A stretch of DNA of 50,428 nt from Candidatus Hebobacterum abditum (GTDB lineage: Bacteria > Armatimonadota > Hebobacteria > Hebobacterales > Hebobacteraceae), in NCBI GenBank assembly GCA_029821875.1, contig JALGXW010000025.1:1-50428 (forward strand), written 5' to 3'. The notes beneath the pieces were generated by a model. The model was not told where the DNA came from. It saw only the letters and a program-made list of their open reading frames with translations, and searched no databases. Of this stretch, positions 36,787-49,846 are shown in pieces. Made by a program: the position numbers and the translations under genes. The stretch's first letter is position 1, and each line of letters begins with the position of its first letter.

Positions 36787-39459
36787 CTAGTCTTTGCCTC
36801 GTATCCGCGCCAACATCTGTGCATCAACCACCACTGTGAACTCGGGGCTGTAGTCGGCGACGAACACCCACACGTTGTGCGCCTCCCAGCCCGGGATGGT
36901 GCTCCACGTCGTTCCGGGCTTCATCACATAGCGCACGACCACTTCGTCCTTCGTTCCCGGGCGGGCGAACAGGAGGCGCGGGTGGAGGTATGTCTCGAGG
37001 GCCGCGACCAAGCTGCGGCCGTCAGTCGCCGCGGGGAAACGGTTGTTGTGATCCCCGAGGTAGGCGCGCATGGCCAGCGCGAGGTGCTCCATGTTCACGA
37101 GAACCGCAGTGAGTGCCCAGCCGCCGCCTCCCGATCCGCTACCTCCTGAGGGCCTGCTCTCCGCGTGACCGTCCGCATAGGCAACGACGCGGAGACCCGG
37201 GAGGGTCGCGCATGTCGCCTCCGCGAAGGGGGTCTCCGCGGCCTTCTCCGGCGCCACGGCCGCGCCGGAGCGGGCGAGGTACCGCACATCGAGGGGATCG
37301 CCGATGGTGGCGTGAACCAGGATGCTCTCCGGCGCCAGGTACAGGCCGAGCCGCCTCAGCAGCTCATCGACGGTCTCTCCCTTGGGGAATATGCCCGCGT
37401 GCTCCAGGAGGTAGCTTCTCATGGCGAGTCCCAGCCGCTGCATGTTGCTCTGCACGTGGAGCGCCTCCGGCATGAAGTCCACATCGGCCGCCACAACGTT
37501 CCGGCCAGCCGCACCGCGGCCACCACCTCCGCCACCACCTCCGCCGCCTCCTCGACCGCCGGCTCTGCCGCTGGCCACGCCACTTCCGCCGCCTTCGGCC
37601 ACGCCTCCCAGATGCCAGTCGAGGCCTCCCGTCGGCTGCAAACGGCGATCGTATTCTTCGTACCTAAACGGTAGCTCTCCGGACAGGATGGCACCGTCCT
37701 TTAGGGTGAGCCTGTACGGGATCGTGGGACGGCCCCACTCCCCCTCGAAGACATCGCCCAGTTCGACCCGCACTATGGGGTTCCGTCTGAGAGTGGTGCA
37801 GACCTCAGCTACCCAGCCCGGATAGTCCATATCGACACAGTAGTATCCGGCTCCCAGAGGCGGAGGGAACTCCTTCCACACATCCTGCTTGGTGGAGTTC
37901 AGGAAGTAGTCGTAGTCGGCGCCCTGGATAGCCTCGAAGAGCACCTCGGCCATCATGACGACCTCCCCCGGATGCGCCAGGGCCTCCTCGTACTTCTCTG
38001 CCCGGGCCGCTGCATCGGCCTTTGGCACGAGTATGGCGTGCCCGTCCATGTAGGCCTCCACCCGCCACTCGGGGTGGTAGTCCACGACGGCCATCAATGT
38101 ACTCGCCGGCGTCTCGACCGAGCTGTACGGCAGGCCAGGCTCGAAGGTGAACTGCACGGCCGGCTCGACTGTGCCCGGCCGCAGGAAGACAGACTGCTCC
38201 TTCACATACGGAGCCAATACCCCTATCAGCTCAACTGCGTCGCTGGTGCTCGGTAGCACGTGGTCGTGCTCGGCCATGAACATATGCACCGCCAGCGCCA
38301 CGTTCTTCATGTTGCTGAGCACCTGCACGGCTTCGCTTCGCGTCGGCTCCACCAGCCACGAGTAGCGCGAATCAGACCGGCCTCCTCCGCCGCCACCGGT
38401 TGAGCGCACCTCGACGGCCGCGAAAGCAACCGCCGCGAGAATCACAACTGCTGCCAGAACAAGCCATGCGACGCGACTGATACGGCTGACTCTGTGTCCC
38501 CTCATGATCGCCTCCACCCGCCTGAGCAGAGTGAACTTCCCTTCCGCGACTCCGACGGACGCCACCGCAAGCTCGCCACGCACCCTCTCCGCCGCCGCCA
38601 ACAGCGAGAGAGCATACCTGCGCGGGTCGGCGTCCTTTGCCAGCGCGGCCGCGTCGCAGAGCTCCTCTCTCGCCAACGTGATCCGCCGGCCGGCCAGCCA
38701 GGCCGCCGGATGGAAGAAGAGGGGCAGCTCGGCCAGGCGCTGGAGCAGGTTTTCCAGGAAGTCGCCCCGCTTGATATGGGCCACCTCGTGCGCGAGCACG
38801 GCGCGCAGGTCGGCCGGCGACAGCGAGTCGAGCCACTCCTGCGGAATGAGAACCGCCGGCCACCTGAGCCCGTAGAGCAGAGGCGCGCTCAGCTCTGCAG
38901 TGCTGCGCAGGGCCACCTTCCGGCGCACGCCTGCTTCCGCGCACAGCGCGTCGAGCAGTTCCGATGCCTCAGCATCATCCACCGGCCGGCTGGCAGCGAT
39001 CATCGACCGCAGCGACCTGTGGCCCAGCAGCAGGCGGGCGGCTACGACCGTGCACCCCACCAACCAGACCGCCATCAGCGCCGCGCTCAGTGGGATCCGA
39101 GAGCGTGTTCGCGTGCCCGCCCGGCGTGCGGCAGGCGCGAGGGCCGGCGCCTCGCGCCCGACCCTCGGCTGCAGGGCCGTTGGCGCGAGCGATTGCGCGA
39201 ACTCGACCGCGCGGACCATCGGCTGCGGGGCCGGCACGGTCACTCTGGCCGCGCTGCGCTCCAGCACCAGGCGCGCCGGAGCGAGAACCAGCGGCGCCAC
39301 GAGCACGATCCACCACAGCGAGTGTCGCGCCCGCGCCTGCGTCACCCGCAGCACCCGCTCGCAGGCGAGCACCAACACCGCAAGGAGGGCCGCCTGCCAC
39401 ACGACCGTCAGCATGACGGGGCCCCACACGTCGGCCAATCTCTGCATAGCGACCATCAT
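36787..39459 (-). CDS. BlaR1/MecR1-type M56 metalloprotease with three prepilin-like (H-X9-DG) modules
   Basis: 890 aa. Residues 1-350 are a BlaR1-type membrane protease: helices near residues 12-33, 47-65, 122-145 and 330-350, with the zinc motif HEVAH (about 224-228) and the downstream Glu in REELCDAAAL. The penicillin-binding sensor of BlaR1 is absent. Instead there are three related modules: about 380-475 (LSNMKNVALAVHMFMAEHDH, H-X9-DG at YHPEWRVEAYMDGH), 665-765 (SNMQRLGLAMRSYLLEH) and 780-885 (VNMEHLALAMRAYLGDHNN), resembling prepilin globular domains. A separate module (500-617) recurs in the next gene. Linkers are poly-Gly. It follows the BlaI gene by 10 nt. Confidence 0.85.
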   Translation of the reverse strand: MMVAMQRLADVWGPVMLTVVWQAALLAVLVLACERVLRVTQARARHSLWWIVLVAPLVLAPARLVLERSAARVTVPAPQPMVRAVEFAQSLAPTALQPRVGREAPALAPAARRAGTRTRSRIPLSAALMAVWLVGCTVVAARLLLGHRSLRSMIAASRPVDDAEASELLDALCAEAGVRRKVALRSTAELSAPLLYGLRWPAVLIPQEWLDSLSPADLRAVLAHEVAHIKRGDFLENLLQRLAELPLFFHPAAWLAGRRITLAREELCDAAALAKDADPRRYALSLLAAAERVRGELAVASVGVAEGKFTLLRRVEAIMRGHRVSRISRVAWLVLAAVVILAAVAFAAVEVRSTGGGGGGRSDSRYSWLVEPTRSEAVQVLSNMKNVALAVHMFMAEHDHVLPSTSDAVELIGVLAPYVKEQSVFLRPGTVEPAVQFTFEPGLPYSSVETPASTLMAVVDYHPEWRVEAYMDGHAILVPKADAAARAEKYEEALAHPGEVVMMAEVLFEAIQGADYDYFLNSTKQDVWKEFPPPLGAGYYCVDMDYPGWVAEVCTTLRRNPIVRVELGDVFEGEWGRPTIPYRLTLKDGAILSGELPFRYEEYDRRLQPTGGLDWHLGGVAEGGGSGVASGRAGGRGGGGGGGGGGGRGAAGRNVVAADVDFMPEALHVQSNMQRLGLAMRSYLLEHAGIFPKGETVDELLRRLGLYLAPESILVHATIGDPLDVRYLARSGAAVAPEKAAETPFAEATCATLPGLRVVAYADGHAESRPSGGSGSGGGGWALTAVLVNMEHLALAMRAYLGDHNNRFPAATDGRSLVAALETYLHPRLLFARPGTKDEVVVRYVMKPGTTWSTIPGWEAHNVWVFVADYSPEFTVVVDAQMLARIRGKD
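37518..37551. repeat. Short tandem repeat encoding poly-Gly linker
   Basis: Two and a half copies of a 12-nt unit (GCCACCACCTCC on the plus strand) encode the Gly run of the protease linker. Units of 12 nt keep frame, so slippage would change linker length only. Confidence 0.6.
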
Positions 39460-39469
39460 CGTGCCCCCG

Positions 39470-39850
39470 CTACTTCTTTCTCTTTGTGATGAGCTTCCTG
39501 ATGCGACTCAGCTCCTCGTCGGACAGAGACGGGTCGTCGAGCAGCCGTACCACCAGCGCCTCGGGGGACCCGCGGAAGGCGCTCGACACCAAATCGCGCA
39601 GGAGCCCCCTCTTCACCGACCGTTCCTGGAGGCGGGTCCGGTAGACGTGGGCCCGGCCTCGCTCGTCGCGGTCGAGGTAGCCCTTCTCGTGCATGTGTCT
39701 CATCATGATGAGCACAGTCATATAGGTGGGCCGTGGCTCCACGTCGAGCTGCTCCAGCACGTCGCGGACGGTGGAGGGGCCGCGCTCCCACAGCACATTG
39801 AGTATCAGCAGCTCCAGATCTCCCAGCTTCCTATCCGGTCGCCTGCGCAT
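39470..39850 (-). CDS. BlaI/MecI-family transcriptional repressor
   Basis: 126 aa winged-helix repressor. DLELLILNVLWERGPSTVRDVLEQL (helices 1-2), PTYMTVLIMMRHMHEKGYLDRDERGRAHVY (recognition helix and wing) and a C-terminal dimer region (SFRGSPEALVVRLL, LSDEELSRIRKLI) are typical. In the classical system BlaR1 triggers cleavage of BlaI within its dimer domain. It is followed by the M56 protease after 10 nt and is expressed from the promoter at 39887-39915. No TACA/TGTA-type Bla operator is visible; a small TTATATAA palindrome lies just past the predicted start point. Confidence 0.93.
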   Translation of the reverse strand: MRRRPDRKLGDLELLILNVLWERGPSTVRDVLEQLDVEPRPTYMTVLIMMRHMHEKGYLDRDERGRAHVYRTRLQERSVKRGLLRDLVSSAFRGSPEALVVRLLDDPSLSDEELSRIRKLITKRKK

Positions 39851-39886
39851 GGTCTGTCGGCTCCTATCTTATATAAATGCGTTATT

Positions 39887-39960: not shown

Positions 39961-40060
39961 AACGAAGATTGAGGCAGTGACGCTGCCCCGCTGAGTTTCC
40001 CCCTGAGTGCGACCAGATCGCGCCGCGTCATATGCGGAATCCAGCCCGAGGGGATGTGCG

Positions 40061-41551
40061 ATGAAGGCTCTCCGACTTCTCCTCCCGTTCGCTATCCTGC
40101 TGTATGTGTGTGCCGCTCCTGCGCTTGGCGAGCAGGTCGTGGAAGTGTGGCGGGGAGGTGGGTTCCAGCTGGTCAGCGATCTCTGCGTCGACCCCACCGA
40201 CGGGTCCTGTTGGGTCGGCCACTACCTCGGGCTCGTGCACCTGGCCGCGGACGGAACGGAGCTCTATCGGAGAGACAGTGGCTGGCCCACCTCCGTCTCC
40301 GTGAACCCGACGGACGGGTCATGTTGGATGAGCGATCACCCTGATCTGGTGCACGTCGCTGCCAACGGTACGGAGCTTTGGCGAGCAGAGGAGTACTCCT
40401 GCAGGTCCGTATCCGTGAACCCAACCGATAGTACCTGCTGGACCGCTGGAACCGGGGGCGTCAGGCATCTCGATGAGGACGGCACCGAGCTGGTAAGCGT
40501 CGCCAGCTTTGCCGACGCGGCATCGGTGTCTGTGGATCCCGTAGACGGGTCCTGCTGGGTAGCAGACATCCAGGGTGACGAGGTGGTGCATCTAGCAGAG
40601 GATGGAATTGAGTTGTGGCGAGGAGGGGGCTTCCATCAACCCTCGTTGGTATGCGTGAACGCGGCAGATGGCTCCTGCTGGGTCATTGACGGAGCCAACG
40701 GGTACGCAGTCCACCTGAGGGCAGATGGCACTGAGTTGCTGCGCATCGGGGGAGTGGAGTTCGGGTCCTTCAATTGGATATCCGTCGACCCTGCGGACGG
40801 TTCCGTCTGGGTGGCTGACGGTATGAACGAGCAAGTTGCCCACCTTGCTGAGGACGGCGCCGAGCTCTGGCACGGAGGGTACTTCCCTGGTGCGGAGTGC
40901 GTCTCTGTGAACCCGGCAGACGGTTCCTGCTGGGTAGCGGCACGCACGCACGGTGAGGTGGCGCACCTGGTGATTGCCTCACCGTTCAGCGACGTAGGCA
41001 TGGAGCACTGGGCGAGGGACGAGATCGTCGCTTGCGTGGACGCTGGCATCGTTGCCGGCTATGGCGACGGTACGTATCAACCCGGCAATCCCGTGACCCG
41101 CGACCAGATGGCGGTCTACATCTCCCGCGCCCTGGCCGGCGGGGACGACAACGTGCCGGACTACACAGACACGCCGACCTTCCCCGATGTCGCGGAGGGA
41201 TTCTGGGCGCTCAAGTACGTGGAGTATGCGGTCTCCCAGAACGTCGTCGCGGGCTACCTCGATGGCACCTACCATCCTGAGCATCAGGTCACGCGTGACC
41301 AGATGGCAGTGTACGTGGCACGTTCCATCTGCGACCCAACCGGCGAAGATGGCCTGGCCGACTACACGCCAGCTGACCCCCGCAACTTCCCCGATGTGGC
41401 CTCCGGCTTCTGGTCCTACAAGCACGTCGAGTACTGTGTTGAGAACGGCGTGGTGGCAGGCTACCTCGACGGCCTCTACCACCCCGAGATCGTCGTCACA
41501 CGGGACCAGATGGCCGTCTACGTGGCGAGGGCGTTCGGGTTGGCGGGGTAG
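40061..41551 (+). CDS. Secreted seven-blade propeller protein with three SLH domains
   Basis: 496 aa. Signal peptide MKALRLLLPFAILLYVCAAPALG (cleavage about residue 23). Seven copies of a 37-44-residue repeat follow (core VSVNPxDGSCWVxD...VHLAEDGTELWR), so one seven-bladed beta-propeller is likely; Cys is kept in six of seven blades. Residues about 310-496 are three SLH domains (FSDVGMEHWARDEIVACVDA, FPDVAEGFWALKYVEYAV, FPDVASGFWSYKHVEYCVEN), each with a TRDQMAVY motif. It would be anchored at the cell surface or outer-membrane/peptidoglycan interface. ATG 40061 follows GAGGGG. Related to the next two genes. Confidence 0.88.
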   Translation: MKALRLLLPFAILLYVCAAPALGEQVVEVWRGGGFQLVSDLCVDPTDGSCWVGHYLGLVHLAADGTELYRRDSGWPTSVSVNPTDGSCWMSDHPDLVHVAANGTELWRAEEYSCRSVSVNPTDSTCWTAGTGGVRHLDEDGTELVSVASFADAASVSVDPVDGSCWVADIQGDEVVHLAEDGIELWRGGGFHQPSLVCVNAADGSCWVIDGANGYAVHLRADGTELLRIGGVEFGSFNWISVDPADGSVWVADGMNEQVAHLAEDGAELWHGGYFPGAECVSVNPADGSCWVAARTHGEVAHLVIASPFSDVGMEHWARDEIVACVDAGIVAGYGDGTYQPGNPVTRDQMAVYISRALAGGDDNVPDYTDTPTFPDVAEGFWALKYVEYAVSQNVVAGYLDGTYHPEHQVTRDQMAVYVARSICDPTGEDGLADYTPADPRNFPDVASGFWSYKHVEYCVENGVVAGYLDGLYHPEIVVTRDQMAVYVARAFGLAG

Positions 41552-41665: not shown

Positions 41666-44107
41666 ATGATCGCTCATCGCACGCTGCGGTATCACTGCCT
41701 CGCGGCGCTGGGCCTCGCTGCCCTCCTGTGGGCAGCGCCAGCGGTCGGGGAAGACATCCCCGCCTTCCAGTACGCGTTCGGCACGCCCGCCATCGAGCCG
41801 GTCTGGTCGGACGATTACCACGATCCGCATCGATATCCGTCTCTTGCAGTAGATGAGTCCTACGTGTACGTCGGCGGCGCCCAGCTCAACGTCTTCACTC
41901 GCGACGGAGAGTGGGTTGACTTCTGGCCCATATCGTCGGACGTGCGGCAGTTGGGTGAGCTGTCAGGGCGCGGCTCGACAGTCTCTATGGCCAGCGATAT
42001 CGCGCTGGCCGCACCGGACCGTGTCTGTGTTCTGGATGCGCCCTACGGGGCGGTTCACGTCTACACCCGGGAGGGCGAGTTCCTGACCGGCTGGGGCGGA
42101 TACGGCGACACGGCCGACACCTTCTCCGCCCCGGCGGCCATCGCGGCCGATGAGTCCTCGGTGTACGTGCTCGACACATATCCGGGGCGAGCGGTGCGCT
42201 TTGATCTGGAGGGGAACTTCCTCAACGCCTGGGACACCCCTGTGCTTCCGGAACCGTACCTCAACTCACCCATCGACATCGCCTCTGACCCAGCGGGCGG
42301 AGTGTGGGTGCTCAACGAGTCGAAGTACTTCTCCGAAGCGGAGCAGGAGTGGACTCGCGACGCCCGATGCTACAAGTATGCGCCGGACGGCTCGGAAGAG
42401 GCGAGCTGGCCGCTCGCGGATGCGTCGGGGTGGTTCGCCATAGGGGCCGATCCGGCAGGTAACGTGTGGGTGCTCGATGACGGCGGCGGCTATCCGAGGA
42501 AGCTTCGGCGCTTCACGCCAGGCGGCGAACTGCTGGTGGCGTTCAGCGCTCCTCAGGGGAGCGGGTACACGCACAACTTCGCGATCTCGCCGGACTCGCA
42601 GCTTGTAGCACTGAATCCCCAGCAGATAGCAGGGGCAGGTTGGGACACGCGAGGTGAGATTCTCTGCCCTGTGGTGTCCCTGGACTTCGAGGGCCAGCCG
42701 CTCGGGAGCTTCGGCGACCAATGGCAGATGCCGGACGTGGGCGCCCTGCTGCTGCCATATCCCTTTGCCGTCGACGCGGCGGGCGCCACCGCCTGCCGGG
42801 CCCATCCCCCGGGATACCGTTATACGCTCCCAGACTACGTCGTCCGGTACGGTCCCGGCGGGGAGCTGGTGGAGGTCGTCGAGACCGAGAAGTGGCCCAT
42901 CTACAATCCGGCGAGCGACACCGTCGAGCTGGTCGAAGCGCCCTGGCAGCCGAACTTCATCGATGGCACGGGAGCCTACTGGATCTACTCAGGGGAATGG
43001 CTCGATTGGCCGCCCGATGACATCGGCGTTCTCGACCTCGTGGTGGAGTCCGCCACGACTCAGGAGACCCTGAGCATCGTGCTGCCCTCGGCCGAGGCCC
43101 CGGAGCCGTCCGGCAACTGCTGCTGCCGCGATGTCGCCGTTCGCCAGGCGCACGACGGCAACATACTCCTCGCGGTGTGGGAGGTCGTGGACGATTACGA
43201 GACGGGTACCACCATGTTCGTTCTCACCGTGACCCGTGACGGCACGGTCCTCAGCTCTGCTACCATCGAGCAGGCGACCTTCGACTGGTACCCGGAGTGT
43301 GTCGAGCAGGACGACGCGGGAAACATCTACATCGGCAACTGGAATGGCGTGTGGAAGTTCTCGGCGAGCGGTGAGTTCATCGGCCGCATCGGCGGCTGGG
43401 GCGGGGAGGGAGACCAGCGCGACGCGCCCGGCTCCCTCGTTCTCGGCGCCCGGGCCATCGATATCGACGCGACCGGCCGCCTGCGAGTGCTCGACTACGA
43501 GGCGAACCGCATCCTGCTCTTCGCCTATACGCCAGGGCCCTTCCCCGACGTCTCCTACTCCCACTGGGCGAAGGAAGCCATTGCGGCCGCGGTCGACGCG
43601 GGAATCGTGTGCGGGTACGGCGACGGCATCTATGGGCCCGGGCTTCCGGTAAGCCGCGACCAGATGGCCGTGTACGTCTCCCGCGCGCTGGTTGGCGGAG
43701 ATGCGAACGTGCCCGAGTTCACCGGCACGCCGAGCTTCTCGGATGTGGGTGAGGAGCATTGGGCGCTCGACTACGTCGAGTACGCCTTCTCTCAGAATGT
43801 CGTGACCGGATATGAGGACGGCCTCTACCACCCCGAGTATGAGGTGACCCGCGACCAGATGGCGGTGTACGTCGCCCGTGCCCTCGTTGCACCGACTGGC
43901 GAGGCCGCCCTCGCCGACCACGTGCCGGCCGAACCGCGCAACTTCCCCGATGTGCCGAGCGATCACTGGGCCTACACACACATCGAGTACTGTGTCGAGA
44001 ACGGCGTGGTGGCCGGCTATCTCGACGGCTACTACCACCCCGAGATCGTCGTCACCCGCGACCAGATGGCGGTGTACGTGGCGAGGGCGTTCGGTCTCAC
44101 TTCGTAG
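41666..44107 (+). CDS. Secreted NHL-type propeller protein with three SLH domains
   Basis: 813 aa. Signal peptide (HRTLRYHCLAALGLAALLWAAPAVG, cleavage about residue 28). The central 600 residues are NHL/6-bladed-propeller-like repeats (SSVYVLDTYPGRAVRFDLEGNFLNAW, AGNVWVLDDGGGYPRKLRRF, AGNIYIGNWNGVWKFSASGEFIG, GRLRVLDYEANRILLFAY), distinct from the DGSCW repeats of its neighbours. An insert of about 150 residues (GNCCCRDVAVRQAHDGN) has three adjacent Cys. The C-terminus has three SLH domains (FPDVSYSHWAKEAI, FSDVGEEHWALDYVEYAF, FPDVPSDHWAYTHIEYCVEN). GAGG-type ribosome site before ATG 41666. Surface-anchored; ligand unknown. Confidence 0.87.
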   Translation: MIAHRTLRYHCLAALGLAALLWAAPAVGEDIPAFQYAFGTPAIEPVWSDDYHDPHRYPSLAVDESYVYVGGAQLNVFTRDGEWVDFWPISSDVRQLGELSGRGSTVSMASDIALAAPDRVCVLDAPYGAVHVYTREGEFLTGWGGYGDTADTFSAPAAIAADESSVYVLDTYPGRAVRFDLEGNFLNAWDTPVLPEPYLNSPIDIASDPAGGVWVLNESKYFSEAEQEWTRDARCYKYAPDGSEEASWPLADASGWFAIGADPAGNVWVLDDGGGYPRKLRRFTPGGELLVAFSAPQGSGYTHNFAISPDSQLVALNPQQIAGAGWDTRGEILCPVVSLDFEGQPLGSFGDQWQMPDVGALLLPYPFAVDAAGATACRAHPPGYRYTLPDYVVRYGPGGELVEVVETEKWPIYNPASDTVELVEAPWQPNFIDGTGAYWIYSGEWLDWPPDDIGVLDLVVESATTQETLSIVLPSAEAPEPSGNCCCRDVAVRQAHDGNILLAVWEVVDDYETGTTMFVLTVTRDGTVLSSATIEQATFDWYPECVEQDDAGNIYIGNWNGVWKFSASGEFIGRIGGWGGEGDQRDAPGSLVLGARAIDIDATGRLRVLDYEANRILLFAYTPGPFPDVSYSHWAKEAIAAAVDAGIVCGYGDGIYGPGLPVSRDQMAVYVSRALVGGDANVPEFTGTPSFSDVGEEHWALDYVEYAFSQNVVTGYEDGLYHPEYEVTRDQMAVYVARALVAPTGEAALADHVPAEPRNFPDVPSDHWAYTHIEYCVENGVVAGYLDGYYHPEIVVTRDQMAVYVARAFGLTS

Positions 44108-44205: not shown

Positions 44206-44333
44206 TCAATGGTAGGTCTGTGCGCGGCCGTGTCGCCTTCCTGCTGGCGGCGCTCTGCGGCAGCTGAGCATCCATCTTCCCGGCCGCTCCGAGGCCGAAT
44301 CCCGTGTAGCACGCAGTGCCAAGGAGGAAGACA

Positions 44334-46814
44334 ATGGCACGCTGTCATCTGCTGCTCGGATTCGCTGTCGCCCTCATCATCTGCTTCTGCTCCGGCCGTG
44401 CCGTCGCGCTGGAGGTCGTGGAGGCCTATCGCAGCCCTCTTGGGGGCCCGCGCGTGGTGTCGGTGAACCCGACCGATGGCTCCTGCTGGCTGGCCGCGGA
44501 CTCCGGCGTCTTCCACATCGCCTCCGATGGGACCATCCTCAGCCACGACCCCGGCGCCGTCGAGCCTCATGCAGTTGCTGTGAATCCCGCCGATGGGTCC
44601 TGCTGGGTGGTTGAAGGCTCGGAGTGCCCTACACGCCATGAACCCTCTGGCGAGTCCCCGGAGGGCGCGCTGGCCCGCTTGGACGACAGCGGTGCCGAGT
44701 CGCTGCGGGTGCCTTTGACGGTCGGGTCGTGGTTCTGCTGCCCCAACCCGGCGCTGGGTGTCAATCCTGCAGATGGCTCCTGCTGGGTCGGCGAGCGCTT
44801 CACGGGCCAGCTGGTCCATCTGGCCGAGGATGGGACGGAGATCTGGCGAGGTGATTACTTCGAGGCCGGGGCCATATCCGTCAACCCGGCGGACGGTTCC
44901 TGCTGGGTGGCCGATCTGTGGAGCCATGAGCTCATCCACTTGGCCGAGGATGGCACCGAGCTCTGGCGCGGGCTCTGGCTCGACACCCCGCGGTCCGTCG
45001 CTGTCAACCCGACGGACGGTTCCTGCTGGGTGGCCGGAGTGCTTGGCGCCATGGGCGACGCCGTAGTCCACCTCGCCGGAGACGGCACTGAGCTGGTGAG
45101 AGTGGGGCCGTTCGACGGAGCTCTGTCGGTTGCCGTGAACCCGGCCGACGGCTCCTGCTGGATCGCGGACACGACCCATGGGGCAGTGGTCCACCTGGCC
45201 GAGGACGGCAGCGAACTGTGGCGTGACGACACCTTTGTCGCCCCCACCTCGGTGTGCGTCGACCCTACCAATGGGTCATGCTGGGTGGCCGACTCCGCTC
45301 AGGTGGTCCACCTCAGCGAGGAGGGCGAAGTCCTGTGGCGCATGGAGGGCTTCGGATGGCCCTGGGCCGTGTCGACGAACGCCAGCGATGGCTCCTACTG
45401 GGTAACCGATACGTTGCACTATGATAGCGGCGCTGGCTGGCTGGTTCATCTCGCCGAGGATGGCACCGAGCTCTGGCGCGGCGGCGGTTTCGGAACTCCC
45501 TGGTCAGTCTCGGTTGACCCCTCCGATGGCTCCTGCTGGGTTGGCCACTGGCTCTCTGACGAGTCCTCTGTCGGCGACAGTCTGGTCCGCCACCTCGCTG
45601 AGGACGGCGGCGAGCTGTGGCGTGGCACCGAGTTCAGCTGGCCTTTGTCCCTTTCCACGAACTCGACGGATGGCTCCTGCTGGGTGGCCGATGGCGTCGT
45701 GGACACTGCGGCTTCGACTATCGTTCACCTGGCCGGCGACGGCACCGAACTCTGGCGTGGGACCGGATTCGGATGGCCAAACAGTGTCTCTGTAGACTCC
45801 TCGGACGGCTCCTGCTGGGTGTCAGACCAGGCTACGACCGTCATTCACCTGGGAGAGGGTGGCGCTGAGCTGTGGCGCGGCGGGCACGAGTTCAGCGGGA
45901 CGTTCTCGGTATCGGCGAACTCCAGCGATGGCTCCTGCTGGGTGACCGACTGCAACTTCGCCCGATCCCCCGACACTATTAGTTACATAGTCCACCTCGG
46001 CAGGGACGGCACCACACTCTGGCGTGGCGAGGGCCCAGTCTGGTGCGCCTATGCCTCGGTGAACTCCGCCGACGGCTCGTGCTGGATTGCCGCTCCTTGC
46101 GATGGCTATGTTTCCCTGCTGGCCGAGGACGGCTCCGAGCTATGGCGGGGGGACGACTTCGTCCGTCCCAGCGCGGTCTCGGCCAACCCCACCGACAACT
46201 CCTGCTGGGTGGTGGACGGGGGCACCTCTCAGGTCGTGCGCCTAGTGATTCAACGGCCGGCTCTGTTCGGCGATGTGCCCGGAGACTTCTGGGCCTATGA
46301 TGAGATTGGGGCCTGCGACTCCGCCGGCATCGTCAGCGGCTATGAGGACGGAACCTATGACCCGTCGGGTGATGTCGATCGCGCGCAGATGGCCGTCTAC
46401 ATCGCCCGCGCCATGGTCGGCGGGGAGGAGAACATCCCCGAGGCTGGGCGGCCCCGCTCCTTCTTCGACGTGCCTCGGGACCACTGGGCCTTCGATCACA
46501 TCGAGTACCTCAAGGCCGCGGGCGTCGTCACGGGATATACCTCTGGCCTCTACGCGCCCGACCTGTCGGTCCTGCGCGACCAGATGGCCGTCTACATCGC
46601 CCGCGCGAGCGGCTGGGTGACCAACGGGGACGACATGACCGGCACCTCCGAGCTCTTCCCCGACGTGCCGGCCGGGCACTGGGCCGGCGCCGCGATCCAG
46701 GAATGCCTCGACCGCGGCGTCGTGCAGGGCTACGACGACGGCTGCTATCACCCCGAGATCGTCGTCACCCGAGACCAGATGGCGGTGTATATGGCGCGGG
46801 CGTTCGACCTGTAG
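44334..46814 (+). CDS. Secreted fourteen-repeat propeller protein with three SLH domains
   Basis: 826 aa. ATG 44334 has an ideal AAGGAGG site; an upstream GTG is not needed. Signal peptide MARCHLLLGFAVALIICFCSG. Fourteen copies of the DGSCW repeat (VSVNPxDGSCWVAD...VVHLAEDGTELWRG) span residues about 35-640, which fits two seven-bladed propellers; 13 of 14 keep the Cys (blade 8 has DGSYW). Three SLH domains close the protein (FGDVPGDFWAYDEI, FFDVPRDHWAFDHIEYLK, FPDVPAGHWAGAAIQECL), the last ending HPEIVVTRDQMAVYMARAF as in its neighbours. It looks like an internal doubling of the first SLH protein. Confidence 0.88.
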   Translation: MARCHLLLGFAVALIICFCSGRAVALEVVEAYRSPLGGPRVVSVNPTDGSCWLAADSGVFHIASDGTILSHDPGAVEPHAVAVNPADGSCWVVEGSECPTRHEPSGESPEGALARLDDSGAESLRVPLTVGSWFCCPNPALGVNPADGSCWVGERFTGQLVHLAEDGTEIWRGDYFEAGAISVNPADGSCWVADLWSHELIHLAEDGTELWRGLWLDTPRSVAVNPTDGSCWVAGVLGAMGDAVVHLAGDGTELVRVGPFDGALSVAVNPADGSCWIADTTHGAVVHLAEDGSELWRDDTFVAPTSVCVDPTNGSCWVADSAQVVHLSEEGEVLWRMEGFGWPWAVSTNASDGSYWVTDTLHYDSGAGWLVHLAEDGTELWRGGGFGTPWSVSVDPSDGSCWVGHWLSDESSVGDSLVRHLAEDGGELWRGTEFSWPLSLSTNSTDGSCWVADGVVDTAASTIVHLAGDGTELWRGTGFGWPNSVSVDSSDGSCWVSDQATTVIHLGEGGAELWRGGHEFSGTFSVSANSSDGSCWVTDCNFARSPDTISYIVHLGRDGTTLWRGEGPVWCAYASVNSADGSCWIAAPCDGYVSLLAEDGSELWRGDDFVRPSAVSANPTDNSCWVVDGGTSQVVRLVIQRPALFGDVPGDFWAYDEIGACDSAGIVSGYEDGTYDPSGDVDRAQMAVYIARAMVGGEENIPEAGRPRSFFDVPRDHWAFDHIEYLKAAGVVTGYTSGLYAPDLSVLRDQMAVYIARASGWVTNGDDMTGTSELFPDVPAGHWAGAAIQECLDRGVVQGYDDGCYHPEIVVTRDQMAVYMARAFDL

Positions 46815-46885: not shown

Positions 46886-46943
46886 TCGCTCGAACCCGAG
46901 AGTGCGGAGACCATCCTGCGCATCACCGCGGGAGTCGAGCGCA

Positions 46944-48344
46944 ATGAAGCGGGACAACCGACGCGAGTTCGTCAGAACGGCCCTTGCGGGCGACCGAGGG
47001 CCCAATGTGATCTTTATTCTGTCCGATGACCAGGGCCCGTGGGCGGCCGGCTGTTACGGCAATCCCGAGATCCGCACCCCGAACATCGACCGCCTCGCCG
47101 CCACCGGCCTGCGCTTCGAGAACTTCTTCGTGGCGACGCCGGTGTGTTCGCCGAGCCGGGCCACACTGCTGACCGGCCGCATCCCCTCCCAGCACGGCGT
47201 GCACGACTGGATCTCCGGCGGCAACGTTGGGCCGGACGCGATCCGTTACATGGAGGGAGAGCAGGCCTACACTCACGTCATGGCGCGCCACGGGTGGACC
47301 TGCGGCATCAGCGGCAAGTGGCACCTGGGCGACTCGCAGATCCCCCAGTGTGGGTTCTCCGACTGGTACGTGCACCAGAGCGGCGGAGGCGACTACAACG
47401 CCGCACCCATGGTGCGGAACGGCCAGCTCATAACCGAGACGCGTTACATCACTGACGTGATCACCGACGAAGCACTGGCCATGCTCGACCGCTACGCGGC
47501 CGCGCAGGCTCCCTTCTACCTCAGTGTCCACTACACCGCGCCGCACTCGCCCTGGACTGGGCATCCCGAGGACGTCGTGCAGTCGTATGATGGCTGCGCG
47601 TTCGAGTCGTGCCCCCAGGAGCCGAGACATCCCTGGGCTATCTCCCTCACCGATCAGTGCCTCGGCAGTCGCGAGATGCTCAAGGGGTACTTCGCGGCCG
47701 TCACCGCCATGGACACGAACATCGGGCGGATCATCGACGCGCTCGAGGCCAAGGGCCTACGGGAGAACACGCTCGTAGTGTTCCTGAGCGACAACGGTTT
47801 CTCGTGCGGGCACCATGGATTCTGGGGCAAGGGCAACGGCACGCTCCCCCGCAACATGTACGAGAACTCGATCAAGGTCCCGGCCGTCTTCTCTCAGCCG
47901 ACCGCTATCCCGCAGAACGAAGTCGCCGACGCCATGGTGTCGGCCTATGACTTCATGCCGACCTTGCTTGACTACCTTGGCCTGCCGATCCCAACTGACT
48001 GCAGCCTTCCCGGCGGCAGCTTCGCGCCGCTGCTGCGCGGCGGCACGGTTGACACCTCCGAGCCCGTCGTCATCTACGACGAGTACGGGCCAGTCCAGAT
48101 GATACGAACCGAGGAATGGAAGTATGTCTACCGGCATGCCCACGGACCTGACGAACTATTGGATCTGCGCAATGACCCCGACGAGCGGGAGAACCTGGCC
48201 GCCGAGCCAGCGCACCAGAAGCAGATGCGCGAGCTGAAGGTGGCCATGGACGAGTGGTTCGCCCGCTACGTCATCCCGAGCCGCGACGGCCTGCGGGAGG
48301 AGGCCCCCGAGGGCGTGCCCGGGCAGAGCTGGTTGGTGAGGTGA
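46944..48344 (+). CDS. Sulfatase (formylglycine-dependent) with truncated Tat signal
   Basis: 466 aa type I sulfatase. Metal site start IFILSDDQGP, the maturation motif CSPSRATLLTGR (CxPSR; Cys becomes formylglycine, about residues 67-78), SGKWHLG, HYTAPHSPW and the late metal motif VFLSDNG. The N-terminus MKRDNRREFVRTALAG keeps the twin-arginine pattern (RREFVR), but the hydrophobic stretch is missing and the catalytic domain begins at once (DRGPNVIF), so export is doubtful. GGGAG precedes ATG 46944. Followed after 20 nt by a second sulfatase, so probably one operon. Substrate unknown; sulfated polysaccharide is likely. Confidence 0.9.
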   Translation: MKRDNRREFVRTALAGDRGPNVIFILSDDQGPWAAGCYGNPEIRTPNIDRLAATGLRFENFFVATPVCSPSRATLLTGRIPSQHGVHDWISGGNVGPDAIRYMEGEQAYTHVMARHGWTCGISGKWHLGDSQIPQCGFSDWYVHQSGGGDYNAAPMVRNGQLITETRYITDVITDEALAMLDRYAAAQAPFYLSVHYTAPHSPWTGHPEDVVQSYDGCAFESCPQEPRHPWAISLTDQCLGSREMLKGYFAAVTAMDTNIGRIIDALEAKGLRENTLVVFLSDNGFSCGHHGFWGKGNGTLPRNMYENSIKVPAVFSQPTAIPQNEVADAMVSAYDFMPTLLDYLGLPIPTDCSLPGGSFAPLLRGGTVDTSEPVVIYDEYGPVQMIRTEEWKYVYRHAHGPDELLDLRNDPDERENLAAEPAHQKQMRELKVAMDEWFARYVIPSRDGLREEAPEGVPGQSWLVR

Positions 48345-48364
48345 GGAGGAGGGGAAAGCGACAG

Positions 48365-49846
48365 ATGAGCAAGCTGACCCGAAGGGACTTCATCAAGACG
48401 GCGCTGGCGGCCTCCGCTGGGCTGACAGCGCTGCGAGGAGAGGTGAGCGTGGCGGAAGCGAACCGCGCAGCGAAGCATCCTAACCTGGTGTTCGTGTTCC
48501 CCGACGAGATGCGCCGCCAGGCCATGGGATGCATGGACGCCGACCCGGTCATCACACCCACCCTCGACCGCCTGGCGAACGACGGCATGGTCCTGACCCA
48601 GGCGGTGAGCAACTTCCCCGTATGCAGCCCTTACCGCGGCATGCTGTTCACCGGCAAGTACCCGTTCTCCAATGGCGTCATCCACAACTGCCTCTCCGCG
48701 CCGTTTTCGAAGACGAGCTACCTGCGGCAAGATGATCGATGCCTGTCCGACGTGCTGAGCGACGCCGGCTACAACTGCGGCTACATCGGCAAGTGGCACC
48801 TCGAGCGGCCGCACGAGCCCTATGTCGAGCCGCCAAGGCCAGGCGATGGCTACGTGTGGGATGAGTTCACTCCGCCCGAGCGCCGTCATGGGTTCGACTT
48901 CTGGTATGCCTACAATTGCTACGACGGGCACATGACGCCGCACTACTGGACCACCGATGCCAGCCGCGACGAGAAGACCGAGATCCGCGAGTGGTCCGTC
49001 AAGCACGAGGCCGACATCGCCATCGACTACATCGAAAACCGCGACGGCAAGCATAGAGATTCGAGCAAGCCGTTCGCGCTCTTCCTCGCCCACAACCCAC
49101 CCCACATGCCCTTCGACCTCGTCCCAGACGAATACGTCGCCAGGTACGGCGACAAGACCTATGCCGACCTCCTAACCCGTCCCAACGTAGACCTCTCCAT
49201 AGAGGACGGCCCCACCGCACAGGCCAAGCGGTGGGTCAAACACTACTTCGCCGCCGTCACCGGCATAGACGAGAACCTAGGCAGAATCCTCGAGTGCCTG
49301 AAGGAACAGGGCCTCGAGGACAACACCATCGTCGTCTTCACCTCCGACCACGGCGAGATGATGGGCAGCCACAACCTCATGCACAAGAACCAGATCTATG
49401 AGGAGTCCTTCGGCGTGCCGTTCCTCATCCGCTATCCGCGGAGGATCGCGGCCCGATCGCGAGACGACATTCTCCTCAGCACGCCCGACGTCATGCCGAC
49501 ACTGCTCGGCCTCATGGCCCTGGCCGCGCAGATTCCGCAGCAGGTCGAAGGCGCGGACCATTCCGATGTGCTCCTCGGCAAGTCCACCCAGCGGCCCGAG
49601 CTGGCAGTCTACATGCATCTCCCGCCCACCAACCTGGCGCGAGGGCGACGCGGCCTGCGCACTCCAGGCTACACAATGGAGATCACGAGGAACGACCGGG
49701 GCGAGAGCGTCAAGCTCTTCGACAACGAGAAGGACCCCTACCAGATGAAGAACATCGCCGACGACAGCCCGGCCGTGGTCGAAGACCTCACCAAGAACCT
49801 AAACGAGGAGCTCGCCCGCATCGGCGACCCGTGGGCCGGCGCCTGA
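48365..49846 (+). CDS. Sulfatase (formylglycine-dependent) with Tat signal peptide
   Basis: 493 aa. The N-terminus MSKLTRRDFIKTALAASAG is a classic Tat signal (RRDFIK plus hydrophobic region), predicting export folded to the periplasm. The sulfatase motifs are LVFVFPDEMRRQ, CSPYRGMLFTG (CxPxR with Tyr for Ser), IGKWHLERP, LAHNPPHMPF and VFTSDHGEMMGSH. The C-terminal LFDNEKDPYQMKNIAD is the usual family tail. GAGGAGGGG precedes ATG 48365. It is paired with the sulfatase upstream, which lacks the hydrophobic part of this signal. Maturation needs a formylglycine-generating enzyme not in the window. Confidence 0.92.
   Translation: MSKLTRRDFIKTALAASAGLTALRGEVSVAEANRAAKHPNLVFVFPDEMRRQAMGCMDADPVITPTLDRLANDGMVLTQAVSNFPVCSPYRGMLFTGKYPFSNGVIHNCLSAPFSKTSYLRQDDRCLSDVLSDAGYNCGYIGKWHLERPHEPYVEPPRPGDGYVWDEFTPPERRHGFDFWYAYNCYDGHMTPHYWTTDASRDEKTEIREWSVKHEADIAIDYIENRDGKHRDSSKPFALFLAHNPPHMPFDLVPDEYVARYGDKTYADLLTRPNVDLSIEDGPTAQAKRWVKHYFAAVTGIDENLGRILECLKEQGLEDNTIVVFTSDHGEMMGSHNLMHKNQIYEESFGVPFLIRYPRRIAARSRDDILLSTPDVMPTLLGLMALAAQIPQQVEGADHSDVLLGKSTQRPELAVYMHLPPTNLARGRRGLRTPGYTMEITRNDRGESVKLFDNEKDPYQMKNIADDSPAVVEDLTKNLNEELARIGDPWAGA

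Follow-up and report, generated by a model that had tools for sequence, protein, structure and literature searches.

What does a BlaR1-type membrane protease respond to when its outer part carries prepilin-like modules and the penicillin sensor is missing? This question is raised by a gene pair on the minus strand of the window, the whole 50,428-nucleotide stretch of Candidatus Hebobacterum abditum DNA analysed here. The first gene (39470..39850) encodes P0002, a BlaI/MecI-type repressor of 126 aa (PF03965, E=2.9e-26; 92.5 bits against a Pfam cut-off of 22.6). It adjoins the gene for P0001, which starts 10 bases downstream on the same strand (36787..39459) and encodes an M56 membrane protease of 890 aa with a module-bearing ectodomain. 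PF05569 matched residues 22-318 of P0001 (E=3.7e-38; 131.8 bits against a Pfam cut-off of 31), and this M56 domain (38506..39396, minus strand) holds HEVAH, EELCD (EXXXD), Y and RR motifs. The original prediction of a BlaI gene followed by an M56 protease with HEVAH was thereby borne out.

The cryo-EM study of BlaR1 names H201EXXH, D210, E242XXXD, Y261 and R293/R294 (PMC9834060). The M56 part of P0001 aligned with solved BlaR1 at E=9e-5. All of the named residues (HEXXH and the D following it, EXXXD, Y and RR) have counterparts in P0001, and the HEXXH, EXXXD and Y residues were kept in 11 of 11 aligned module-bearing M56 proteins. Hydropathy placed four hydrophobic segments (residues 11-42, 47-69, 120-147 and 323-356) N-terminal to the ectodomain, and by homology the C-terminal part of P0001 is predicted to be extracytoplasmic. 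Searches with Pfam and NCBIfam found no penicillin-binding (class-D lactamase-like) domain in P0001, as had been claimed. The NCBIfam BlaR1 model reached 83 bits against a cut-off of 400 and covered the M56 part only, and the sole SxxK of the ectodomain falls inside the helix of module 1. With its sensor looked for and absent, P0001 lies outside the beta-lactam sensor family; it probably works like members of that family.

One profile matched three stretches of the ectodomain, all encoded on the minus strand. Module 1 (residues about 367-486; 38008..38352) has an exact H-X9-DG; module 2 (residues 656-776; 37144..37488) keeps ADGH and has lost the H of H-X9-DG; module 3 (residues 774-890; 36790..37128) has lost H-X9-DG altogether, ADGH included. 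The exact motif occurs once in P0001, at residue 462 (HPEWRVEAYMDG), where composition alone gives an expectation of 0.05 for the ectodomain. When a single sequence (module 1 plus the next domain) was searched against the whole genome, it reached module 3 at 1.3e-10, module 2 at 3.2e-6 and, with scores as strong as 1e-19, unrelated genes elsewhere in the genome, indicating that the repeat is real and not due to chance. No methylation helix was found before any of the three P0001 modules, which begin after the point where that helix would end. Three related modules, an exact H-X9-DG in the first and the missing methylation helix had all been predicted correctly. The reading of the ectodomain as three modules needed one amendment: residues about 490-625 (37597..38016, minus strand) form a fourth, unrelated domain with no Pfam match. 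Gly-rich linkers join the ectodomain parts, and the junctions fall in Gly-rich stretches.

The fourth domain is shared with the downstream gene, P0003 (35721..36581, minus strand), whose product consists of one hydrophobic segment and a copy of this domain. It shares about 31-34% identity with the C-terminal halves of P0003 and of the P0003 counterpart in the related genome G001, where a 286-aa protein is encoded at the same place. A search of the phylum found genus-limited copies only, two matches at E 0.005-0.009 not being credited. No Pfam or NCBIfam model names the modules, the fourth domain or P0003.

We then compared the modules with prepilins. The module start SNMKNVALAVHMFMAEHDHVLPS aligned with the SNVKNIALAIQMYLADNNDTLPP stretch found in a dozen or more prepilins from the same genome, in which the methylation helix directly precedes SNVKNIALAIQMYLADNNDTLPP; every own-genome prepilin that was read to its end had an exact H-X9-DG of type RHLGGVNLGFLDG. 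Profile-profile alignment of 70 modules with the own-genome prepilins gave a probability of 99.3% (hhalign). DUF1559 matched 36 of the 70 module relatives (best 1e-16) and TIGR04294 matched 15 (best 3.4e-9), while the window modules themselves stayed below the family cut-offs (Pfam DUF1559 on P0001, E=0.015). Three intermediates, L024, L116 and L117, retain part of the prepilin helix together with the full head. As judged from these comparisons, the modules are H-X9-DG/DUF1559 prepilin heads that lack the pilus-building helix, in agreement with the predicted pseudopilin derivation.

Structure prediction gave a well-defined model of module 1 (AlphaFold2, 70 sequences; pLDDT 91.1, pTM 0.82), with three helices, the first long and the third short, then four strands and a final helix. 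The same order of elements recurred in both modules of an AlphaFold model of the module 2-3 tandem, which was of lower confidence (pLDDT 77.7, pTM 0.57). The expected resemblance of the predicted fold to solved pseudopilin heads did not materialise: Foldseek searches of the PDB with module 1 and with the tandem returned nothing at E<=0.001, and the best pilin listed was PilV 5v23 at E=3.6. The case for a prepilin origin therefore rests on sequence. PDB sequences searched with the module profile yielded only noise. Because no solved structure is related to these heads in sequence, the lack of a fold match counts only weakly against a pilin fold.

Comparison with relatives revealed which parts of the ectodomain are stable. 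In the three closest genomes, which span two genera, modules 2-3 were kept and the middle part was swapped. At the place of the fourth domain, G001 has a much longer insert with a peptidase-MA-like part (below the Pfam cut-off), and G002 has nothing, its 592-residue protein consisting of the M56 domain and modules 2-3. The fusion of M56 with modules, lacking module 1 and the fourth domain, was found in two separately assembled relatives and is thus not an assembly artefact. Across the genome of the window (G000), G001 and G002, modules 2-3 are the constant core of the ectodomain, and module 1 with its neighbouring domain seems to have been inserted into a Gly-rich linker.

Modules 2-3 are 85-87% identical to those of two relatives, across genera. 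We estimated synonymous divergence between G000 and G002 by the Nei-Gojobori method in windows of about 60 codons, in which single values are rough, and obtained about 1.45 for FtsZ, 1.55 for BlaI and 1.2-1.4 for the first half of M56, compared with about 0.5 for the last third of M56 and 0.17-0.28 (up to 0.3) for modules 2-3. Slow evolution of the module pair under selection alone was rejected, because synonymous divergence is low too. A synonymous divergence of 0.17-0.3, where FtsZ shows 1.45, speaks for a recent exchange, and the simplest reading is that recombination carried the module pair and the end of the protease between genera. The dN/dS ratio was about 0.28-0.30 for modules 2-3 and 0.34-0.39 for M56, and modules 2-3 are under purifying selection.

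Across the phylum, the module profile matched 201 of 251 Armatimonadota genomes at E<=1e-9, a count that includes full prepilins. Module carriers comprised beta-propeller-like proteins, a zf-HC2 anti-sigma protein, fusions of sigma factors to ectodomains, small lipoproteins and a CHAT-like protein, several of these types being named from sequence alone. The module is thus a mobile, general add-on of extracytoplasmic proteins across the phylum and is not special to BlaI/M56. The zf-HC2 anti-sigma-type protein (L117:3-1781, genome G073) combines an embedded prepilin-like membrane helix, a full H-X9-DG head and DUF4349, and represents a second signalling context for the module. At L074:2004-4367 and L127:3316-5361, ECF-type sigma factors are fused to a membrane segment and to an ectodomain with a prepilin-head module at its end. 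The protein at L123:1391-5620 (G247), of 1409 residues, has two such modules and a region of repeats, and its C-terminus is CHAT-like.

Module-bearing M56 proteins numbered at least 12 of the 64 examined and belonged to families f1, f15 and f24; the 12 emerged from crossing module matches with M56 matches and reading the loci, and the 64 form a set enriched for module bearers. The same architecture, sought in other genomes, was thus found, and the combination of M56 with prepilin heads is real and recurrent in distant relatives. A BlaI gene lay directly upstream in 11 of 11 module-bearing M56 loci checked, several with 4-nt overlaps, and the twelfth (L215) was also BlaI-linked. On the M56 tree the module label requires no fewer than five changes, of which one may be due to a sequence truncated at the end of a contig, indicating that the combination arose or was lost several times. 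The six module-bearing proteins of f15 form one clade (99/92) and are mostly compact with one module; the compact forms of module-bearing M56, at 479-548 aa, are near BlaR1 in length and have no other ectodomain.

Upstream of the BlaI gene we found a candidate operator (39866..39886, minus strand), a degenerate dyad read from the sequence (ATAATAATAACGCATTTATAT, 5 mismatches) that is near-identical in G001 and related to the perfect dyad CTACTAAYAAYGNATTAGTAG. In G002 the perfect form precedes the orthologous BlaI gene; in G000 and G001 it precedes paralogous pairs. It occurs once per genome in these three genomes and nowhere else within three mismatches, and a reversed control pattern gave no occurrence. 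The position of the perfect dyad before BlaI fits autoregulation of the operon. None of the BlaI genes examined was preceded by the classical operator, TACA..TGTA. Divergent from the BlaI operon, three adjacent genes (40007-41551, 41666-44107 and 44316-46814) encode large proteins that combine propeller-like repeats with S-layer-homology segments at the C-terminus, Pfam confirming SLH for the first two, and two adjacent sulfatase-like genes follow by ORF reading (46902-49846).

Gene neighbours in the f15 clade offered a clue to the regulated process. In five of its six members the same-strand gene after M56 was sugar-related (3-keto-disaccharide hydrolase in three, GH31 in one, alpha-L-fucosidase in one), and in the sixth it was a gene for an MnmE-like GTPase, as read from sequence. 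Genomes carried 2-6 copies of the 3-keto-disaccharide hydrolase, and a scan of nine control M56 neighbours, of which some lie on the opposite strand, turned up no glycoside hydrolase. These neighbours are suggestive of control of sugar-degradation genes by f15 BlaI/M56 pairs. They do not amount to proof, because the three hydrolase cases represent one inherited linkage and L215 has no sugar-degradation neighbour of the f15 type. The window's own pair has no adjacent sugar gene.

According to the BlaR1 model, the membrane helices relay an ectodomain change to a cytosolic zinc site that cuts BlaI (PMC9834060, PMC7593790). We consider it reasonably probable that the pair described here is a regulated proteolysis system of BlaR1 type in which prepilin-head modules form the extracytoplasmic input. 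BlaI would repress its own operon and probably few other genes, and the M56 protein would act as a membrane antirepressor that cuts BlaI once its outer part is triggered. Behind membrane helix 4, the penicillin sensor of BlaR1 would have been replaced by prepilin heads that lack the membrane and methylation helix and are joined by Gly-rich linkers. Binding of a solute, of a glycan fragment or of another envelope protein to these heads might send a conformational change to the protease. The catalytic residues, the upstream BlaI gene, the placement of the modules after the last membrane helix, in the position of the BlaR1 sensor, the purifying selection, the dyad and the f15 neighbours all argue for an antirepressor. 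DUF1559 has been described as a solute-binding family, and in Rhodopirellula it reacts to salt and cold stress (PMC2754498); this is in keeping with binding by the heads but does not demonstrate it. That the ligand class is sugar-related is a guess from the neighbours in the distant family f15. The earlier idea of an antirepressor that senses through pseudopilin-derived domains thus stood as regards the BlaI/M56 pair without a penicillin sensor, the prepilin derivation of the modules and the recurrence of the architecture; the fold search gave it no support, and sensing itself is an inference.

The modules need not be the sensor, since they also occur on proteins with no link to signalling. 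They could be spacers or decoration, spread by shuffling at Gly-rich coding repeats, with the signal sensed elsewhere, for example in the loop between helices 2 and 3 or in the fourth domain. The attachment of the module to very different proteins, the free swapping of the middle part among relatives, the Gly-rich junctions and the different parts found at the module position in other M56 proteins of the same genome would all be expected of such decoration. We nevertheless regard it as unlikely, given the purifying selection on modules 2-3 and their 85-87% identity across genera, the compact forms that have no other ectodomain, and a combination that arose or was lost several times, always on BlaI-linked M56 proteins.

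Alternatively, the modules might dock head-to-head onto the cell's own pseudopilus or pilus, so that the protease reports assembly or secretion. Partners would be plentiful, as the genome has its dozen or more such prepilins, whose head the modules keep from the helix end to DGH, and in Fimbriimonas 65 of the 79 PulG-type genes include the methylation motif (PMC4072686). Module 3 has lost H-X9-DG, however, pilus or secretion genes were not seen beside the BlaI/M56 pairs read, and head-head contact is without structural support, which makes docking quite improbable. Least credible of all is the idea that the modules are not prepilin-derived and share the helix motif by a coincidence of amphipathic helices: the failure of Foldseek to match the modules significantly with a solved pilin or pseudopilin and the sub-threshold DUF1559 score on P0001 are what it can draw on, whereas the own-genome prepilin profile match, the intermediates with a partial helix and full head, the many DUF1559 and TIGR04294 matches among module relatives and the weakness of a fold search against structures that include no sequence relative of the heads leave it very little room.

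Returning to prepilin heads as the input of a BlaR1-type pair, their place in the sensor slot of a well-understood protease means that binding could be read as repressor cleavage. H-X9-DG/DUF1559 and PulG-type proteins occur by the dozen in Planctomycetes and Armatimonadota, with 74 DUF1559 genes in Rhodopirellula (PMC2754498), and the function of their heads is little known; if true, the proposed role would give these very numerous heads a functional clue, namely ligand binding. It would also mean that the BlaR1 mechanism has been re-used with a different sensor exchanged as a cassette. More tentatively, and with considerable doubt, we suggest that Armatimonadota possess a class of antirepressors of BlaR1 type that use domesticated prepilin heads as exchangeable ligand sensors, probably for sugar-related compounds, on a cassette that moves between genera by recombination. 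In the literature searched we found no description of an M56 protein with prepilin heads.

Compared with H-X9-DG/DUF1559 prepilins (TIGR04294, PF07596), the modules match the head from the end of helix 1 to DGH, but they are missing the methylation helix, the class III signal and the prepilins' long insert, modules 2 and 3 have lost H-X9-DG, and all are fused to a membrane protease. Other BlaI-linked M56 proteins of the same genome likewise have M56 behind BlaI with a swapped ectodomain, and differ from P0001 in what that ectodomain is: CarboxypepD_reg plus a module (L005/L073), HEAT-like repeats (L004, contig C23) or a LolA-like part (L003, contig C100), the latter two named from their sequences only. 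The L073 pair (L073:8099-12169, contig C27) comprises BlaI and an M56 protein of 1356 residues with one module and carboxypeptidase-regulatory-like repeats, and has the perfect dyad in its promoter. With BlaR1/MecR1 and BlaI/MecI (MEROPS M56) of staphylococci and Bacillus licheniformis, the window pair shares the gene order, a winged-helix repressor, four predicted membrane segments, a HEXXH/EXXXD gluzincin site and a C-terminal part predicted to be extracytoplasmic. Unlike those systems, it has no adjacent beta-lactamase gene, and where they have a class-D beta-lactamase-like sensor, the window protein has three prepilin-head modules and an extra domain instead.
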